Source: Glacieibacterium arshaanense (lineage in GTDB: Bacteria > Pseudomonadota > Alphaproteobacteria > Sphingomonadales > Sphingomonadaceae). From it: 64,000 bases of DNA. Shown here one piece after another: positions 12,079 to 55,276 of the stretch. Below the pieces are notes generated by a model. It was not told where the DNA came from and did no database searches. It saw only the letters and a list, made by a program, of their open reading frames with translations. The stretch's first letter is position 1. Each line of letters begins with the position of its first letter. Both the position numbers and the translations under genes were made by a program. The stretch lies in contig NZ_SIHO01000002.1 of assembly GCF_004681125.1 (NCBI RefSeq), positions 784,563-848,562 on the forward strand, written 5' to 3'.

Positions 12079-12452
12079 GCCGCGAAGTCGCCCATGCGGC
12101 CGGCCCATTGCAGGCCGATCACGCCGCCCTTGACCGGTTGCAGCATCAGAAGGGCCAGCACGATGACGATCAGCGACGCGGTGAGCGCGAACGCCCACAT
12201 CGGCGGGTGGTAATTGATTTCGACCGCGACGGCGATCGGCGCCAGCACATGGCCCAGAATCAGGATGACCAGATACGGCGGGAAGTCATCGGCGCGCTGC
12301 GCGGTGAAATCCTCGCCGCAGGCAGCGCACTGCGCTACCGGCTTGAGGAACTTGCCGAACAACTTACCTTGCCCGCACGCCGGGCAGCGGCACTGCAGCC
12401 CGCGACCAATGGCTTGCCAGCGGTCGCGGGGCACGAGTGTGTCAGGTATCAT
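12075..12452 (-). CDS. DUF983 membrane protein
   Basis: 125 aa. The N-terminal part has two CxxC pairs (CPACGQG and CAACGED), forming a probable zinc ribbon. Two transmembrane helices follow (about residues 58-78 and 85-105). DUF983 proteins are common in alphaproteobacteria, often near respiratory genes, but lack an assigned function. The start codon overlaps the pckA stop by 4 nt (ATGA), so translation is probably coupled to pckA. Confidence 0.85.
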
Positions 12453-14068
12453 GCGGCCTTCGGGGCAGCGTCGCGCACGCCGGCATCGACATGGTCGGCG
12501 AACTGCTCGAAGTTGGCGATGAACAGGTTCACCAGCGCCTTGGCCTTGGCGTCATAGGCATCCTTGTCGGCCCAGGTGTCGCGCGGGTTGAGGATCTGCA
12601 TGTCGACGTTCGGCACGGTGATCGGCACCTGGAAGCCGAAGAACGGATCGGTGCGGAACGGTGCATTGTTGAGCGACCCGTCGAGTGCGGCCGACAGCAG
12701 CGCGCGCGTCACGCGGATCGGCATGCGCTTGCCGACGCCGTAGATGCCGCCGGTCCAGCCGGTGTTGACGAGCCAGACATCGACGCCGCCCTTGGCAATG
12801 CGCTCCTTGAGCAGGTTGCCGTAAACCGACGGGTGGCGCGGCATGAACGGTGCGCCGAAGCAGGTCGAGAACGTCGCATCGGGCTCGGTGACGCCGATTT
12901 CGGTGCCGGCGACGCGCGCGGTGTAGCCGCTGAGGAAGTGGTACATCGCCTGGTCGGGCGTCAGCTTGGCGATCGGGGGCAGGATGCCGAACGCGTCGGC
13001 GGTCAGCATGATGATGTTCTTCGGAACCGGGCCGAGGTTGTCATCGCTGGCGTTGGGGATGAAGTGGATCGGGTACGACGCGCGGCTGTTTTCGGCGAGG
13101 CTCGCATCATCGAGGTCAATCTTGCGGGTGACCGGATCGATCACGACGTTCTCGAGCACTGTGCCGAAGCGCTTGGTGGTCGCGAAAATTTCGGGCTCGG
13201 CTTCTTCCGACAGGCGGATGACCTTGGCGTAGCAACCGCCTTCGAAGTTGAACACGGCGGTATCCGACCAGCCATGTTCGTCGTCACCGATCAGCGTGCG
13301 CGAGGCGTCCGCCGACAGCGTCGTCTTGCCGGTGCCCGACAGGCCGAAGAACACCGCGGTATCGCCCTTGGGGCCGATGTTCGCCGAGCAATGCATCGGC
13401 ATGACGCCCTTCAAGGGCAGCAGGTAGTTCAAAATCGAGAACACCGACTTCTTCATTTCGCCGGCGTACTTGGTGCCGCCGATGAGGATCGTCTTGCCTT
13501 CGAAATCGACCGCGACGATCGTTTCGCTGCGGCAGCCATGACGTTCGGGATCGGCCTTGAAGCTCGGCAGATCGACGATGGTGAACTCAGGCAGGAAGTC
13601 AGCGAGCGCTTCAGCCTCGGGGCGCACCAGCAGCGTGCGGATGAACAGCGAGTGCCAGGCGAGTTCGGTAATGACGCGGACCTGGACGCGATGTTCGGGC
13701 TGCGAGCCGCCGAACAGGTCCTGCACATAAAGCGTCTTCTTTGCAGCCAGCGCTGCAGCAAAATCGGCCTTCACATTGGCGAACTGCGCCGGGGTGATCG
13801 CCTTGTTGGTCTTGCCCCACCAGATCGCGGGCGCGGTGACGTCGTCCTTGACGATGAACTTGTCGTTCGCCGAACGACCGGTGTGCTTGCCGGTTTCGAC
13901 GACAAAGGCGCCGTCTTCGCTGAGCAGGCCTTCGCCGGCTTCGACAGCGCGTCCGATCAGCGGTGCGGTACCAAGGTTCCAGTGCAGTTCGGCCTTGGTC
14001 GCGAAGCCCTGCACGTCAAGGCCGTGGCGCGATTGACGAACAAGTGTGCTGGTCGAAGCGTTGGTCAC
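12449..14068 (-). CDS. pckA: Phosphoenolpyruvate carboxykinase (ATP)
   Basis: Gluconeogenic enzyme converting oxaloacetate + ATP to PEP + CO2 + ADP (539 aa). Seen: substrate loop [11 protein letters not shown], kinase-1a P-loop [13 protein letters not shown], kinase-2 motif [10 protein letters not shown] and the upstream [18 protein letters not shown]. The GTG complementary to 14066-14068 has AGGAG 8 nt upstream and starts the conserved protein; the longer frame adds 37 unconserved residues. It is divergent from chvI with a shared 211-bp promoter region, the usual alphaproteobacterial arrangement linking gluconeogenesis with ChvG/ChvI and the PTS block. Confidence 0.96.
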
Positions 14069-14279
14069 CGTCTGGTCTCCTGAATCCTGATCGTGAATAC
14101 GTATGCACGACACGTCCGTTCCTCGCGCCGCCGGCAACGCATTGCTGCGCGCCAATCCGGCGCCGCATACACGGCGCAAGGGGGTCAGGTAAAGCGTTTG
14201 TCGCGAATTGGTCGACTGATTTGCAGGCGGCCGGTCGATAGGCTAGGTCAATCCCCGCACTTCAACCGAGGGTCCGGGC

Positions 14280-15020
14280 ATGTCCGCTACGATCGCACTG
14301 GTCGATGATGATCGCAATATTCTGACGTCGGTTTCGATTGCGCTGCAAAATGAAGGCTTCACCGTGCGGATGTATGCCGATGGCGCCACCGCGCTGAAAG
14401 CGCTCACAGAAAATCCGCCGGACCTTGCGGTGCTCGATATCAAGATGCCGCGCATGGACGGCATCGAACTGCTGCGCCGCTTGCGCGAAAAAACCGAGCT
14501 GCCGGTGATTTTTCTGACCTCGAAAGACACCGAGATCGACGAGGCGTTGGGCCTCGCGATGGGTGCCGATGACTATATCGGCAAGCCATTTTCGCAGCGG
14601 TTGCTGATCGAACGCATCCGCGCTGTGCTGCGCCGTGCGGCCAACCGTCGCGCCCCCGATCCCGAGCCAGGCGAGGAGGCGGTCGCGGCCGCGGCCTTCA
14701 CGCGCGGCCGGCTGACGATGGACACCGCGCGTCACCGCGTCACCTGGGGCGAGCCCGGCGCGCGCGGGCCGGGCAGCAGCAACGATGTCGCGTTGACGGT
14801 GACCGAGTTCCTGATTCTGGAGGCGCTGGCGCAGCGCCCCGGCTTCGTCAAGTCGCGCGATCAGCTGATGGACACGGCATATCAGGACGATGTCTACGTC
14901 GATGACCGCACCATCGACAGTCACATCAAGCGGCTGCGCAAGAAGTTCCGCGTTGTCGACCCCGAGTTCAAGGCCATCGAAACGCTCTACGGCGTCGGCT
15001 ACCGTTTCAACGAGGAATGA
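14280..15020 (+). CDS. chvI: Response regulator, OmpR family (ChvI)
   Basis: A 246-aa two-domain regulator. Receiver: acidic pocket DDD (residues 9-11), phospho-acceptor Asp53 in [13 protein letters not shown], and the conserved Lys in [11 protein letters not shown]. The C-terminal winged-helix DNA-binding domain contains [17 protein letters not shown] and [15 protein letters not shown]. It pairs with the ChvG kinase immediately downstream; in other alphaproteobacteria this system senses envelope or acid stress and affects pckA. A receiver/output linker rich in Ala and Gly (around residues 120-165) is longer than usual. GAGGG lies upstream of the ATG. Confidence 0.94.
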
Positions 15021-15066
15021 CGGTGACTTGCTCCGCAATCCCTTTCCGCCATCATTACCGCCAGCG

Positions 15067-16617
15067 ATGAGCAACCCGCGCGCCTGGAGCACCCGCTATA
15101 GCCTGGTGCCGCGCATTCTGGCGGTCAACGTCTTCGCGCTGCTCGTACTGGCGGGCGGCATTCTTTACCTCGATTCGTTCCGCGAGCGGCTGATCGACCA
15201 GCGTCGCGGCGAGCTGCAGCTGCAGGCGCAACTTGTCGCCAGCTTTCTCGCCGAAACCGAGCCTGCGCGCATACCCGAACTGGTGACGCGCTACGGCGCA
15301 ATGAGGAGCGCGCGGCTCAAAGTCTATGACCGCGGCGGGCAGCTTATTGCCGACAGTTGGACGCACAACCCGCCGAGCTTCAAGCTGCGCGATCCGGCCA
15401 CCGAGCCATTCCGCCGCGACATCGCGCGCTTCCTCGACCGCGGAGTCGAAAAGTTCGGCTCGGCCAAACCGATGCCGCCCTATGTGCCGCCCAAAATCGA
15501 CGACCGCGCGGCGTGGAAAGAAGTCATCACGGCGTCGCAGGGCACACCGGCCGACGCGCTGCGCCGCGCCCCCGACCGCACCGTCATCATCAGCACCGCC
15601 GCGCCCATCCGTACCGATGCCACAACGGCACCGTTCGCGGCGCTGCAACTGACCGCCGACACCCGCGACATCACCGACGGCGTGCGCGAGGAACGGCTGA
15701 CGTCATTCCTGATTTTCCTCGGCGTACTGGCACTCAGTCTGATGCTGTCGAGCTTCCTTGCCAGCACCATCGTCCGGCCGCTGCGCCGGCTCGCGGTGGC
15801 GGCACAGCGCGTCCGGCTCGGCCGGTCGCGCGATGTCACCGTGCCGCGCTTTGCCACGCGCCGCGACGAAATCGGCCAGCTGGCGCGCGCGTTGTCGGAC
15901 ATGACGCTGGCGCTGCGCGACCGCATCGACGCCACCGAAGCCTTTGCGGCGGACGTCGCACACGAACTCAAAAACCCGCTCGCCAGCCTGCGCAGCGCCG
16001 TCGATACCTTCGAAGTCGTCGACAACCCTGATCTGAAGCGCCAGCTGCTCGAAGTCGTGCGCGACGACGTCGGCCGCATTGACCGGCTGATCACCGACAT
16101 CGCCGATGCCTCGCGGCTCGACGCCGAACTGTCGCGCAGCCGCTTCGAACGCCTCGATCTCGGCGCGTTGGCGACGACGCTGGTGCGCCTGCACCAGACC
16201 GCCGGCCTGCCGCGCGGCGTGCAACTTGCGGCTGCGGTCGAAGGCGCGCCCTATTGGATCAACGGCGAGCCGGCGCGGCTGGCGCAAGTCGTCCGCAACC
16301 TCATCGACAACGCCGTGTCCTTCTCGCCCGCCGGCGGGGTCGTCACTGTATCCGTAGCACGCGCCCGCGACCGCAATATCGTCCTCACCGTCGATGACCA
16401 CGGCCCCGGCGTCCCGCCCGAAAACCAGGAAGACATCTTCCGCCGCTTCTATTCCGAACGCCCCGAAGGCGAGGACTTCGGCCGCCACTCAGGCCTCGGC
16501 CTCGCCATCGCCCGCACCATCGCCGAAGCGCACGACGGCGGCATCGCGGTGGAAAACCGCATCGTCGACAGCAAGGTCGATGGCGCGCGGTTTACCGTGA
16601 CTTTGCCGCCGGCATGA
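15067..16617 (+). CDS. chvG: Sensor histidine kinase ChvG
   Basis: A 516-aa membrane sensor. Transmembrane helices lie at about residues 15-36 and 212-236, enclosing a periplasmic sensor domain of about 175 residues. A HAMP domain follows (about 237-290), then phospho-acceptor His299 in AADVAHELKNPLASLRSA, N box LAQVVRNLIDNAVSF, and G boxes VDDHGPGVPPE and GLGLAIARTIAEAHDGG. It works with ChvI directly upstream (46-bp gap). Here a complete repeat element separates it from the PTS-regulatory genes, which normally follow directly. Confidence 0.94.
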   Translation: MSNPRAWSTRYSLVPRILAVNVFALLVLAGGILYLDSFRERLIDQRRGELQLQAQLVASFLAETEPARIPELVTRYGAMRSARLKVYDRGGQLIADSWTHNPPSFKLRDPATEPFRRDIARFLDRGVEKFGSAKPMPPYVPPKIDDRAAWKEVITASQGTPADALRRAPDRTVIISTAAPIRTDATTAPFAALQLTADTRDITDGVREERLTSFLIFLGVLALSLMLSSFLASTIVRPLRRLAVAAQRVRLGRSRDVTVPRFATRRDEIGQLARALSDMTLALRDRIDATEAFAADVAHELKNPLASLRSAVDTFEVVDNPDLKRQLLEVVRDDVGRIDRLITDIADASRLDAELSRSRFERLDLGALATTLVRLHQTAGLPRGVQLAAAVEGAPYWINGEPARLAQVVRNLIDNAVSFSPAGGVVTVSVARARDRNIVLTVDDHGPGVPPENQEDIFRRFYSERPEGEDFGRHSGLGLAIARTIAEAHDGGIAVENRIVDSKVDGARFTVTLPPA

Positions 16618-16627
16618 GGGGGGTAGA

Positions 16628-16762
16628 AAGAGCCTCCGGCGGGCAGGGCCTTGGGCCCTGCACCCGAATTTTTGGCGGCCCATCAAACGCTACGGTCGCG
16701 TTCCACAGCACTGGCGCAATTTTCGGGTGCAGGGCCCAAGGCCCTGCCCGCCGGAGGCCCTT
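16628..16762. repeat. Complete palindromic intergenic repeat element (copy 2), containing the hprK-rapZ Shine-Dalgarno
   Basis: Arms 16632-16668 and 16722-16758 are perfect 37-nt inverted repeats around a spacer of about 55 nt. Each arm also folds on its own (GCAGGGCC-TTG-GGCCCTGC). The right arm contains GGAGG (16753-16757), 5 nt before the GTG start at 16763. In the transcript, that GGAGG would pair with CCTCC of the left arm, so the element may repress or tune translation of the next gene, or attenuate read-through from chvG. Confidence 0.88.
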
Positions 16763-18139
16763 GTGACTCTTCTCCACGCCACCGCCGTATCTATCGACGG
16801 GCAGGCGGTGCTGCTGATCGGCCCGCCTGGCAGCGGCAAGTCCGATCTGGCGTTGCGGCTGATCGACCGCGGCGCGTTGCTGATTGCTGATGACCAGGTC
16901 GCGCTGACCGAAATCGATGGTGTGCTCCACGCGTCGGCGCCTGCGGCCATCGCCGGACTGATCGAAGTGCGCGGGCTTGGGATTGCCGCGGTGGCGCATG
17001 GCGCGGCCCCGGTGGCGATGGCGTTCGATCTGGCCGCACGTCCCGAGCGCCTGCCGGATCCGGTGGCGCATGGCGTTGCCGGGGTGACGCTGCCGTTGCT
17101 CGCGCTCGATCCGTTCGAACTGTCGGCACCGCTGAAGGTCGAGGCGGCGCTGCGACGTTTTGGCCCGCCACTCGGTGCATCGCTTGGCATCGCCCCTGCA
17201 TTGGCAGTAGAAGTGCCGGCCATGCCCGATGAAACGCCCCCTTCGCCGCTCGCCGGCCGCGTGCTGCTGGTGACCGGCATGTCGGGCGCCGGCAAATCGA
17301 CGGCGCTCAAGGCGCTCGAAGACATGGGCTATGAGGCGGTCGACAATCTGCCGCTCGGACTGCTAGACCGCCTGCTCGAACCGCATGAGGGCGCGCAGAG
17401 CGACCGGCCGCTGGCCTTCGGCATCGATTCACGTACGCGCGGCTTTGACGCCGACACCATCGTCGAGCGGCTGCGCGCGCTGCGCCATGACGGCACCGAT
17501 GTGCAGATGCTGTTCCTCGATTGCACCGGCGGCGAGCTGACCAAGCGCTTTTCCGAAACCCGCCGCCGCCATCCGCTGGCGCTCGACCGGCCGGCTGCCG
17601 ACGGCATCGCGCGCGAACGTGAGATGCTGGCACCGCTGCGGCGCTGGGCCGATGTCGTCATCGATACCACCGACTATGAAACACCGGGCCTGCGTCGCGC
17701 GCTCGCCGACCGCTTCGGCCGCCCCGGTGTGCAGGCACTGACGCTGACGATCATGTCGTTCGGCTTTGCCCGAGGGCTGCCACGCGATGCCGACCTGGTG
17801 TTCGACATGCGTTTTCTGGCCAATCCGCATTGGGAACCGGCGCTGCGACCGCTGACCGGCGAGGACAAGGCGGTGGGGGATTATGTCGCCGCCGACCCGG
17901 CGTTCGAGCCGGCGTTCGAACGCATTGCCGACCTGCTGCTGACCTTGCTGCCGGGCTATGGGCGCGAAGGGAAGGCCTATTTGACGGTGGCATTCGGCTG
18001 CACCGGCGGGCGGCACCGGTCGGTCTATGTGGCGCGGACGATGGCGGCGCGGCTCGCGGCGGCGGGCTATGACGCGACCGTGGTGCACCGCGACCGCCAC
18101 GGCGATGTCGATAGTGACGCCGCGCTAGTTCAGGTGTAA
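16763..18139 (+). CDS. hprK-rapZ: Fused HPr kinase/phosphorylase (HprK) - RNase adapter protein RapZ
   Basis: One continuous 458-aa frame joins two proteins normally encoded separately. Residues 1-153 are a complete short alphaproteobacterial HprK: Walker A GPPGSGKSDLALRLI, the HprK signature GLIEVRGLGIAAV, and PLLALDPFELSAPLKVEAAL. From Met154 (ATG 17222) a full RapZ follows: Walker A VTGMSGAGKSTALKALEDMG, VDNLP, and the C-terminal domain LTIMSFGFARGLPRDADLV with FGCTGGRHRSVYVA. No stop or frameshift separates them. A weak GAAG 8 nt before ATG 17222 could allow separate RapZ synthesis. HprK phosphorylates HPr on Ser; RapZ is a nucleotide-binding adapter that controls amino-sugar small RNAs in enterobacteria. 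GTG 16763 uses GGAGG inside the upstream repeat. Confidence 0.92.
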   Translation: MTLLHATAVSIDGQAVLLIGPPGSGKSDLALRLIDRGALLIADDQVALTEIDGVLHASAPAAIAGLIEVRGLGIAAVAHGAAPVAMAFDLAARPERLPDPVAHGVAGVTLPLLALDPFELSAPLKVEAALRRFGPPLGASLGIAPALAVEVPAMPDETPPSPLAGRVLLVTGMSGAGKSTALKALEDMGYEAVDNLPLGLLDRLLEPHEGAQSDRPLAFGIDSRTRGFDADTIVERLRALRHDGTDVQMLFLDCTGGELTKRFSETRRRHPLALDRPAADGIAREREMLAPLRRWADVVIDTTDYETPGLRRALADRFGRPGVQALTLTIMSFGFARGLPRDADLVFDMRFLANPHWEPALRPLTGEDKAVGDYVAADPAFEPAFERIADLLLTLLPGYGREGKAYLTVAFGCTGGRHRSVYVARTMAARLAAAGYDATVVHRDRHGDVDSDAALVQV

Positions 18140-18191
18140 CGCGGGTTCGATTTGACGGCGGCGTAGGCCGTTTAGAGGATAAAGCTGGTTT

Positions 18192-18596
18192 ATGATCGGA
18201 CTGGTACTGGTAACGCACGGCAAGCTGGCGACCGAATTTGCCGCCGCGATGGAACACATCGTCGGGCCGCAGGCGCAGCTCGAAACGGTGTGCATCGGCC
18301 CCGAAGATGACATGGAAGCTCGCCGCGCCGATATCGAGGCGGCAGTCGGCCGCGTCGAGTCGGGGCAGGGCGTCATCCTGCTCACCGACATGTTCGGCGG
18401 TACGCCGTCGAACCTGGCGATTTCGCTGATGGGCAGCGGCCAGGTCGAAGTCATCGCCGGCATCAACCTGCCGATGCTGATCCGGCTGGCAAGCGTCCGC
18501 AAGACGATGAACGTCGCCAACGCCGTCGAGGCCGCCGCCGCCGCGGGGCGCAAATACATCTCGGTCGCATCGCAGATCCTGGGCGAGGCGGCTTGA
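18192..18596 (+). CDS. PTS system EIIA component, mannose/fructose family
   Basis: A 134-aa IIA domain that receives phosphate from HPr on His9 (VTHGKLA). Seen: N-terminal strand MIGLVLVTHG, the LLTDMFGGTPSNLA loop and INLPMLIRL. No IIB or IIC permease components are present, so it is expected to be a regulatory phosphocarrier, as in other alphaproteobacteria. It lies 52 bp after hprK-rapZ, and its stop codon overlaps the HPr start by 1 nt. Confidence 0.93.
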   Translation: MIGLVLVTHGKLATEFAAAMEHIVGPQAQLETVCIGPEDDMEARRADIEAAVGRVESGQGVILLTDMFGGTPSNLAISLMGSGQVEVIAGINLPMLIRLASVRKTMNVANAVEAAAAAGRKYISVASQILGEAA

Positions 18597-18865
18597 TGGC
18601 CGGCCCCGTCACCGTCGAAATCCGCAACCGCCGCGGCCTCCACGCCCGCGCCAGCGCCCGCTTCGTGACTATGGCCAGCGGCTATGACGCGGTGGTGACG
18701 GTGATCAAAGACGGTCATTCGGTCACCGGCACATCGATTATGGGCCTGATGATGCTCGCCGCCGCACCCGGCGACCACGTCGAGGTTTCCGCCGAGGGGA
18801 CGCAGGCCGACGAAGCACTCGCGGCGCTGGTCGGGCTGATCGAAGCTAAATTCGGAGAAGAATAG
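18596..18865 (+). CDS. ptsH: Phosphocarrier protein HPr
   Basis: 89 aa. The PTS phosphorylation site is His16 in RRGLHARASA, and the HprK regulatory serine is Ser47 in GTSIMGLMML, the equivalent of Ser46. Both sites therefore exist, matching the HprK domain encoded upstream. ATG 18596 is chosen (TGATG overlap with the EIIA stop); a TTG at 18593 is possible. Enzyme I (probably PtsP/EI-Ntr type) is not in the window. Confidence 0.95.
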   Translation: MAGPVTVEIRNRRGLHARASARFVTMASGYDAVVTVIKDGHSVTGTSIMGLMMLAAAPGDHVEVSAEGTQADEALAALVGLIEAKFGEE

Positions 18866-18868
18866 GCG

Positions 18869-18998
18869 AAGAGCCTCCGGCGGGCAGGGCTGAGCCCTGC
18901 GCCCGATTGATTGCGGCCTTTTCGTTTTAAGTGGTTCGCTTGGCAGAGCAGTGACTAAGTTGGGTGCAGGGCCTAGACCCTGCCCGCCGGAGGCTCTT
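18869..18998. repeat. Complete palindromic intergenic repeat element (copy 3)
   Basis: Left arm 18869-18905 (AAGAGCCTCCGGCGGGCAGG...) and right arm 18962-18998 (...CCGCCGGAGGCTCTT) have perfectly matching outer ends and a 56-nt spacer. Inner hairpins differ between arms (left GCAGGGCT/AGCCCTGC; right has a T.G wobble) but still pair. It lies between the convergent stops of HPr and the dipeptidase, abutting the dipeptidase stop codon. Confidence 0.88.
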
Positions 18999-20141
18999 CT
19001 AGCCCCAAACCTCCCCAAACAGTCGCGCAAAATTCCCGCCCAGGATCTTCTCGACCCGCGTCGTTGACCAGCCGCGGCGCAGCAACTCGTCGGCAAGCGT
19101 TTCGAATTTGCGCGGGCCGTTCAGGTCGGGGGCGAAGGTGTAGACGTCGTCGTTCTCGTTGGGCGCCGCGATGCCCGATGATTTGCGCAGCGCGTTGTCG
19201 GCGGCATATTTCTGGCGATATTCGGCTGTCAGGTCGATCGCCGAAATCTGTCCGTCGGTGCCGAGCCCGACATGGTCTTCGCCCATCACCTGTACCGCAT
19301 GTTCGATATGCGCGATGACGTCGGCGGCCATTTGCTGGCCCTTCACGCGCAGGTACGGCATGAAATAGATGCCGGCGACGCCGCCCTTGTTTGCCAACGC
19401 CTTCAATTCGGCGTCGGCGGTGTTGCGCGGGTGATCGACCAGTGCGCGGCATCCGGTGTGAGTGATCGCCGGCGGGGCTTTCGATGCGGCGATGCCCTCG
19501 GCAATCGTCCGCTGGCCGGCGTGCGACAGGTCGACGACAATGCGCCGCTTGTTGAGTTCGGCGAGATAGGCGTAGCCGAATTTGCTCAGGCCGCCGTTGG
19601 CGGGTTCAGTGGCGCCGTCGCCCGCGAGGTTGCGCAGGTTATAGGTCGGCTGCGCGATCCGCACGCCGAGCGCATCGAGCGTGTCGAGCCGGTCGAAGCT
19701 GTTGCCGAGCAGCGCACTGTCTTGTAGCCCGAAAATCAATCCGAGGCGGCCGGTCGCCTTGGCGGTTTTAAGGTCGGCGGCGTTGCGGATCGCCATGAAT
19801 ACATCGGGGTGTTGCGCGATTTCGAGGTTGTAGGCGGCGATGTTGGCGATGGTGCCCTCGAACGTTTCGGGGCCGTTGCCGACCAGGCTGACGGTGACGT
19901 TGCACGCGGTGATGCCGCTGGCATGCGCATCGTTGAGCGAGCGCGTCGAGTAGCCATGGTCGGGTTGATCCGACTGGCTGCCGGGACCACCAAGCGAATC
20001 GATTACGATGGTGCGCTCATAGGTGTCACGCGCAGTTGCGGAGACGGCGGGCGCGGCAATCGTGGCGGCACGCGCCGGCAGCGCCGCAAGCGCGGCCGCA
20101 CCGGCAAGCAAGGCGCGGCGGCTGGTGGTGAAATCGGTCAT
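18999..20141 (-). CDS. Membrane dipeptidase (M19 family), Tat-exported
   Basis: A 380-aa zinc peptidase of the renal dipeptidase family. The N-terminus has a twin-arginine signal (SRRALLAGAAALAALPARA). Expected family features are seen: VVDLSHAG, the metal-ligand region AITHTGCRALVDHPRN, GLGTDGQ with a metal/active-site Asp, and C-terminal ILGGNFARLFGEVW. The usual substrates are dipeptides, including D-residues; specificity is unknown. AAGGGGGA precedes the ATG at 20141. The frame is open to 20192 but the signal peptide fixes the start. Confidence 0.9.
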   Translation of the reverse strand: MTDFTTSRRALLAGAAALAALPARAATIAAPAVSATARDTYERTIVIDSLGGPGSQSDQPDHGYSTRSLNDAHASGITACNVTVSLVGNGPETFEGTIANIAAYNLEIAQHPDVFMAIRNAADLKTAKATGRLGLIFGLQDSALLGNSFDRLDTLDALGVRIAQPTYNLRNLAGDGATEPANGGLSKFGYAYLAELNKRRIVVDLSHAGQRTIAEGIAASKAPPAITHTGCRALVDHPRNTADAELKALANKGGVAGIYFMPYLRVKGQQMAADVIAHIEHAVQVMGEDHVGLGTDGQISAIDLTAEYRQKYAADNALRKSSGIAAPNENDDVYTFAPDLNGPRKFETLADELLRRGWSTTRVEKILGGNFARLFGEVWG

Positions 20142-55241: not shown

Positions 55242-55276
55242 CGGGTGCAGGCGTCACGCCTGCCCGCCGGAGGCTC
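55242..55276. repeat. Single arm of the palindromic intergenic repeat (right-hand orientation)
   Basis: Ends CCGCCGGAGGCTCTG; its hairpin read on the minus strand is GCAGGCGT-G-ACGCCTGC, a compensated variant of the family. It lies 89 bp before argS; no partner arm. The 193-bp gap otherwise contains a CCCCGACTTCGCTCGGG hairpin near 55187-55210. Confidence 0.78.

Follow-up and report, generated by a model that had tools for sequence, protein, structure and literature searches.

A gene fusion joining HPr kinase and RapZ in Glacieibacterium arshaanense and other Alphaproteobacteria

Here, we describe a genuine fusion of hprK and rapZ, encoding a single two-enzyme chain, in a 64,000-nucleotide stretch of the Glacieibacterium arshaanense genome (hereafter the window). 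The frame at 16763-18139 (+) gives a 458-residue translation without internal stop, its GTG start agrees with homologues beginning M..LHATAV or similar, and the fusion gene is the sole match at E ≤ 0.001 in the host assembly (3.26 Mb, 99.97% complete). A sequence-only reading of this stretch had placed HprK and RapZ in one polypeptide, and the open 458-codon frame, together with an open junction kept in many relatives, bears this out; because the junction has been retained across so many relatives, the frame is neither a sequencing slip nor a product of chance. That reading had also held that hprK and rapZ are separate neighbours in other alphaproteobacteria, which is true of most that we examined. 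Comparison across the class shows that the fusion arose repeatedly, and we propose that RapZ may serve the kinase as a metabolite-sensing partner.

16763-18139, + strand: hprK-rapZ fusion gene, 458 codons, GTG start, TAA stop at 18137-18139
16763-17179, + strand: HprK catalytic core, residues 1-139 (Pfam PF07475; AlphaFold2 fold compared with L. casei HprK/P)
16820-16843, + strand: HprK Walker A motif GPPGSGKS, residues 20-27 (G25, K26 and S27 invariant in 28 fused sequences)
16961-16984, + strand: HprK/P signature region IEVRGLGI, residues 67-74 (consensus of PMC2937029)
17186-17251, + strand: linker, residues 142-163, predicted disordered (pLDDT below 50)
17255-18106, + strand: RapZ, residues 165-448, N-terminal kinase-like domain and C-terminal domain (Pfam, NCBIfam, AlphaFold2)
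17276-17299, + strand: RapZ Walker A motif GMSGAGKS, residues 172-179 (G172, S174, G175, A176 and G177 invariant in 28 fused sequences)

Two folded parts and their genomic setting

In its first part the chain has a complete HprK fold, of the short type found in Alphaproteobacteria, which lacks the N-terminal domain and the far C-terminal part of the Firmicute protein. Pfam Hpr_kinase_C (PF07475) matched residues 3-78 at 66.3 bits against a cut-off of 33.3, covering only positions 8-84 of the 171 in the profile, and because this part is a short form it missed the cut-off of the full-length HprK equivalog of NCBIfam, TIGR00679 (73.4 bits against 240). Folded alone with AlphaFold2 (residues 1-144) it reached a mean pLDDT of 95, and residues 1-139 aligned to residues 136-290 of L. 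casei HprK/P with a Z score of 18.8 and an rmsd of 2.6 over 139 aligned residues. The complete HprK proposed from the letters for residues 1-153 therefore holds as a complete short-type fold, but not as a Firmicute-type HprK/P, and its confident part ends near residue 139. D43 and D44, which we take to be the functional Asp pair of HprK/P, are invariant in the 28 fused sequences, as are R70 and G73 of the signature, with E68 and G71 each kept in 26. Against the signature consensus given in the available text of PMC2937029, (I,L,M)E(I,V)RG(I,L,M,V)G(I,V)(I,L,M), the window's IEVRGLGIA agrees at eight of nine positions, Ala being the last. The C-terminal region required for phosphorylase activity is absent, the confident fold stopping at the position that matches L. 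casei residue 290; the same source describes this region, which supports dephosphorylation in Firmicutes, as missing from alphaproteobacterial HprK, and its authors link the near-absent dephosphorylation by Brucella melitensis HprK to the missing region (PMC2937029). HPr-serine kinase activity is predicted for the HprK part, its motifs and the serine of the adjacent HPr being conserved.

The remainder of the chain is a full RapZ. Pfam RapZ-like_N (PF03668) matched residues 167-318 (133.8 bits, cut-off 25.4), the RapZ C-terminal domain (PF22740) residues 327-445 (153.4 bits, cut-off 27) and the NCBIfam RapZ equivalog NF003828 residues 167-444 (333.2 bits, cut-off 244); E. coli RapZ was matched across both domains, and the RapZ fold was recovered in structure comparison. 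The C-terminal domain is conserved, with tetramer formation and GlcN6P binding putative here. Both parts carry a Walker A motif, so the two P-loops noticed in the letters were correctly seen. Position 178 of the RapZ motif, however, is Lys in only 12 of the 28 fused sequences, the window's among them, and Arg in 16, which makes coupled ATP use, proposed from the same observation and not supported here, doubtful as a general purpose of the fusion. Two-gene loci have Lys at this position in 104 of 167 and Arg in 48, and the RapZ of many Alphaproteobacteria departs from the E. coli Walker A motif; the use of nucleotide or UDP-GlcNAc there may consequently differ by lineage. In the available account of YvcJ, the K22A substitution abolishes UDP-GlcNAc binding, which renders UDP-GlcNAc at the Walker A motif doubtful in Arg-bearing fused RapZs, though not in the window. 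The enterobacterial role in RNA decay, which had been brought in as a point of the fusion, is not supported in this host: GlmZ (RF00083) was not found in the genome by a search whose E. coli control was positive, and the RapZ tail beyond residue 443, DRHGDVDSDAALVQV, has no basic cluster. Other RNAs may yet be its clients.

The chain thus consists of a short HprK core (residues 1-139) joined through a disordered linker (142-163) to a full RapZ (165-448). AlphaFold2, run with the 28 fused sequences, gave confident HprK and RapZ folds at a pTM of 0.50, with the linker at a pLDDT below 50; the predicted structure is one of two domains on a flexible tether, with no fixed HprK-RapZ contact predicted in the monomer.

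The fused locus is a regulatory PTS locus as in Brucella, with the usual gene order chvG-hprK-rapZ-EIIA(Man)-HPr, and the fusion gene's neighbours in the window are as follows.

12449-14179, - strand: PEP carboxykinase (Pfam)
14280-16617, + strand: response regulator and histidine kinase, upstream (Pfam)
16628-16762, no strand assigned: palindromic repeat with 41-nt arms, 98% complementary, ending at the fusion gene's start codon
16753-16757, + strand: GGAGG, likely Shine-Dalgarno, 5 nt before GTG 16763 and within the repeat's right arm
18192-18596, + strand: EIIA-Man-type PTS protein (PF03610)
18593-18865, + strand: HPr, the expected kinase substrate, with His17 and Ser48 numbered from TTG 18593 (PF00381)

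From its position and a Sensor_TM1 domain, we presume the upstream regulator and kinase pair to be of the ChvI/ChvG type. All 28 non-redundant fused loci have a histidine kinase upstream and EIIA-Man and HPr downstream, and a motif search found the HPr serine kept in each; a candidate EI, recognized by its PEP-utilizers_C domain, lies on another contig. The gene between hprK and ptsM in the Brucella regulatory PTS locus is listed in the available portions of PMC2937029 and PMC9491525 as a predicted protein of unknown function, and by its position it probably corresponds to rapZ. PEP carboxykinase, whose gene adjoins the locus, also supplies the second-best structural matches to the HprK fold (Z about 7.7). 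A promoter scan of 16400-19200 returned no sigma-70-like site, and Rfam gave no match in the window at gathering thresholds.

The repeat at the start codon may affect translation of the fusion. As RNA, 16620-16790 folds to -114.8 kcal/mol (z -10.2), so that a transcript with both arms would bury the ribosome-binding site of the fusion gene. The element is MITE-like and about 130 bp long, with a shorter form of 92-94 bp; the window holds copies at 2309-2439, 16628-16762 and 18868-18999 and a lone arm at 55258, two of the copies flanking hprK-rapZ-EIIA-HPr. Its arms matched the host genome 249 times forward and 248 times in reverse (control 0), perhaps a family of about 250 elements. The arms gave 247 and 282 matches in total in two congeners and 22 and 4 in two genomes of genus g20; four genomes from g63 and g72 had no match.

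Distribution and origins of the fusion

Fetched loci were sorted by script as fused, as in the same frame with a stop between, or as in different frames. Of the 130 loci of the first round, 21 were fused, 41 shared a frame interrupted by a stop, 66 had the two parts in different frames and 2 were unusable. All rounds gave 235 distinct loci, from which 11 without one of the parts were dropped; the 224 classified were fused (40), in frame with a stop (59) or out of frame (125), counts that should not be read as frequencies, since fused sequences served as the queries. Some of the 224 were the same species met twice, and removal of near-copies left 195 non-redundant loci, 28 of them fused, in four groups: the window's Sphingomonadales clade (13), family f34 (12), genus g333 (2) and one metagenome-assembled genome of g402 (G893). 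Close relatives do not uniformly keep separate genes with a conserved stop, the outcome that would have spoken against the fusion; fused relatives occur in several genera, and some near relatives (L004, L016) have two genes. Sandaracinobacter neustonicus is another sphingomonad with the two-gene form.

In genomes drawn evenly, one open frame ran through both parts in at least 8 of 199 from the window's family, 8 of 396 from its order and 5 of 386 from its class, counted among the matches listed. Family f34 was fused in all 12 genomes, spanning six genera, the stops flagged in three lying at the C-terminal end of the protein. Family f64, with a match in 38 of its 39 genomes, had three fused members, G829, G755 and G893. 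Long RapZ frames in other members of the class (G620, G792, G714 and others) were rejected as fusions: of 33 such regions read, none was fused, 27 having hprK in another frame, two in frame with a stop and four no usable HprK match. A weak HprK-sized match was the only one in about 63 of 297 genomes with a match in the class draw, among the matches listed, which indicates that HprK often does without RapZ, and at least one genome (G521) had a RapZ-only match. Outside Alphaproteobacteria, no fusion appeared among the matches listed for the 120 phylum genomes covered, of which 89 carried the same-phylum label. In several f181 genomes, also outside the class, hprK and rapZ share a frame that one stop interrupts between them (e.g., G1015:C4:586797-588122).

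Trees were built from the concatenated domains by a quick method, the first with 91 of 113 non-redundant rows (22 Sphingomonas rows were dropped) and the second with 114 of the 195, namely the 28 fused and others picked by group, partly at random. The best tree of 114 rows has five changes between fused and separate states, four of them forced by strongly supported branches alone, and is best read as four gains (the Sphingomonadales clade, f34, g333 and G893) and one loss in genus g63. A single origin of all fusions was rejected by the AU test on 62 of the 114 rows, five fused near-copies being left out (p 2.4e-7, a cost of 447 log units). A fused Sphingomonadales clade that excludes L004 and L016 was likewise rejected (p 0.0009), as would be expected if g63 had later split the fusion or fused the genes a second time; within this genus and its kin L084 and L085 are fused and L004 and L016 separate, and the L004/L016 lineage seems to have re-split the fusion. 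Tree topology by itself does not strictly separate f34 from g333, and we count them as separate gains also because they belong to different families and the family of g333 has many two-gene members; the origin in G893 is the weakest because it is seen in a single fragmented metagenome-assembled genome.

Two features within the linker bear on how the junction arose.

17207-17215, + strand: GTA GAA GTG, inferred site of the lost hprK stop (comparison with two-gene relatives)
17222-17224, + strand: ATG (Met154), probable former rapZ start, with no clear Shine-Dalgarno (sequence inspection)

The simplest reading is that the hprK stop was lost, and that the old spacer and the rapZ start region became the linker. 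The window reads GTA GAA GTG CCG GCC ATG at 17207-17224, and hprK of two-gene relatives ends in GTA GAG AAT TGA (L016), CTA GAA CCC TGA (L004) or CTA GAT TAG (L102); near two-gene relatives end hprK in a Val/Leu-Glu/Asp pair with the stop immediately after or one codon on, a motif absent in some relatives. Across the 28 fused sequences the junction (window residues 134-166) has a median of 25 residues, 22% Ala and 18% Pro, and the frame remains open although its length varies from 11 to 37. Where the genes are separate, a median of 49 nt parts the hprK stop from the RapZ domain, a spacing so short that fusion would be mutationally easy.

A proposed role for RapZ and competing explanations

We propose that RapZ is a metabolite-sensing partner that controls HprK and that the fusion makes this pairing permanent, a reading that we hold to be the likeliest of those considered, though somewhat short of probable, and for which we infer the contact, the direction of control and the ligand. 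RapZ is cast as the sensing partner because its homologues respond to envelope precursors and act via partners and because it hangs where Firmicute HprK continues. A short HPr(Ser) kinase core would have become joined to a full RapZ through a flexible linker upon loss of the hprK stop. RapZ, as the control subunit, would bind an amino-sugar phosphate, UDP-GlcNAc or a nucleotide, and would set the level of HPr serine phosphorylation by HprK; HPr-Ser-P would in turn slow the passage of phosphate along the regulatory PTS. The fusion would fix the 1:1 ratio and the closeness of partners that in other bacteria would have to meet as separate proteins.

Known systems offer partial likenesses to each half. 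B. melitensis HprK, as described in the available text of PMC2937029, likewise consists of the catalytic core only, with Walker A motif and signature, and is encoded near a two-component system, EIIA-Man and HPr; it phosphorylates NPr-Ser61, with FBP as a stimulator and Pi as an inhibitor, and has hardly any dephosphorylating activity. Unlike the window's HprK, which continues into RapZ, it is a separate protein. E. coli RapZ (PDB 5o5o, 8b0i; PMC5737377, PMC9841335, in the parts available) shares both domains, the Walker A motif and the fold, but has no HprK part, and the window protein lacks the basic cluster in its tail in a genome where no GlmZ was found. YvcJ of B. subtilis, a RapZ homologue, binds UDP-GlcNAc and interacts with a protein partner according to the accessible sections of PMC7525490, although that partner, GlmR, is a separate protein and the window's RapZ is fused to an HPr kinase. 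By the available account in PMC7073468, E. coli RapZ, when GlcN6P is absent, binds the sensor kinase QseE and stimulates it, a likeness in that RapZ acts as a metabolite-responsive activator of a protein kinase; QseE, unlike the fused HprK, is a histidine kinase and a separate protein. The multidomain proteins of the PTS (EI-HPr-IIA, and the tandem HPrK of Fusobacterium nucleatum) are likewise fusions within the PTS phosphoryl-transfer circuit, as far as the available text of PMC2405797 goes.

Control by RapZ is favored by the four fused groups, the kept frame, the gene context and the HprK motifs, and by the absence of other fused pairs: among placeable genes at the 195 loci, chvG-hprK was fused in 0 of 172, rapZ-EIIA in 0 of 188 and EIIA-HPr in 0 of 164, counts to be read with the loci having been chosen via hprK-rapZ and with some pairs overlapping in another frame or lying wider apart. 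Recurrent fusion suggests that the two proteins normally work together, and its repeated, independent occurrence in exactly hprK and rapZ is strong comparative evidence that both act on one process. Against control by RapZ stand the pTM of 0.50, the Walker A Arg in 16 of 28, the HprK-only genomes, the apparent split in g63 and the short spacing, as well as the activity of B. melitensis HprK without RapZ in vitro reported in the available text of PMC2937029. A bolder version, in which RapZ supplies the regulatory half that the truncated HprK of Alphaproteobacteria lacks and the pair, fused or not, reads GlcN6P or UDP-GlcNAc and writes HPr-Ser, we consider rather doubtful.

The linker could instead be a tether only, giving equal dosage and co-localization on HPr or elsewhere, with neither part controlling the other. 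This is a possibility that we take seriously without thinking it likely: the linker is flexible, rich in Ala and Pro, variable in length and sequence and disordered in a model with a pTM of 0.50, and the gene order is the same across fused loci, but tethering by itself leaves unexplained why just this pair of neighbors fused. Less likely is a nearly neutral accident, in which the stop between tightly spaced genes is occasionally lost and both parts tolerate the change without benefit. The very short spacing in two-gene relatives, the apparent reversal in g63 and the many relatives that retain two genes would all suit an accident of this kind; several origins, fusion throughout f34 (all 12 genomes, in six genera), and a frame kept despite changes in linker length would not, nor would the unfused state of the other pairs at these loci, although some of these overlap out of frame or lie wider apart and would fuse less easily.

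It is improbable that an internal start also gives free RapZ, making the full chain part of the output only. Such a start at ATG 17222 had been left open on first reading; the ATG is present, preceded by GTAGAAGTGCCGGCC, which includes GAAG, but the option is a weak one, as GGAG, GAGG and AGGA are all absent from the 11 bases scanned upstream, and three non-redundant fused relatives (L141, L144, L197) have no ATG, GTG or TTG, the codons scanned, in the 40 codons preceding the RapZ domain and hence no ordinary start for free RapZ. In genus g333, both fused loci (L017, L133) have an internal ATG 22 codons ahead of the RapZ domain, and that of L017 follows GGAGG, so that fusion and free RapZ could both be made there; the g333 fusion is possibly recent and still making free RapZ. 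That a stop or frameshift at the junction has been masked by faulty assembly or sequencing is extremely improbable, since, although two congeners are uninformative (in G001 the match ends at residue 60, the contig end, and G002 has no match), open junctions in many relatives' assemblies, including the single-contig genomes G523 and G140 and the cultured Glacieibacterium frigidum LB1R16 and Sandarakinorhabdus limnophila DSM 17366, rule out an artefact or a chance open frame for the group.

Both protein families are known, and what is new, as far as the literature was searched, is their fusion and its repeated origin. Neither was described among the matches listed; nothing found joined RapZ with Alphaproteobacteria, with or without an HPr kinase, and papers retrieved for HprK, RapZ and fusion together concerned other subjects by title. 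A 2008 survey of the PTS in 222 genomes gives HPrK as a single polypeptide except for the tandem HPrK of Fusobacterium, and its available text makes no mention of an HPrK-RapZ fusion (PMC2405797). Automatic annotation may well contain such fusion proteins unnoticed.

The fusion bears on the role of RapZ outside enterobacteria and Bacillus, and on how the truncated HPr kinase of Alphaproteobacteria is controlled. It is a ready-made single-chain construct for testing the partnership in cultured sphingomonads, and g63 and its kin, with fused and separate forms side by side, are well suited to the study of a split or a repeated fusion. If RapZ were the regulatory half of the kinase, the supply of envelope precursors would directly set the nitrogen- and carbon-regulating PTS, and the RNA-adapter role of RapZ would be an enterobacterial specialization of an older, kinase-controlling role.
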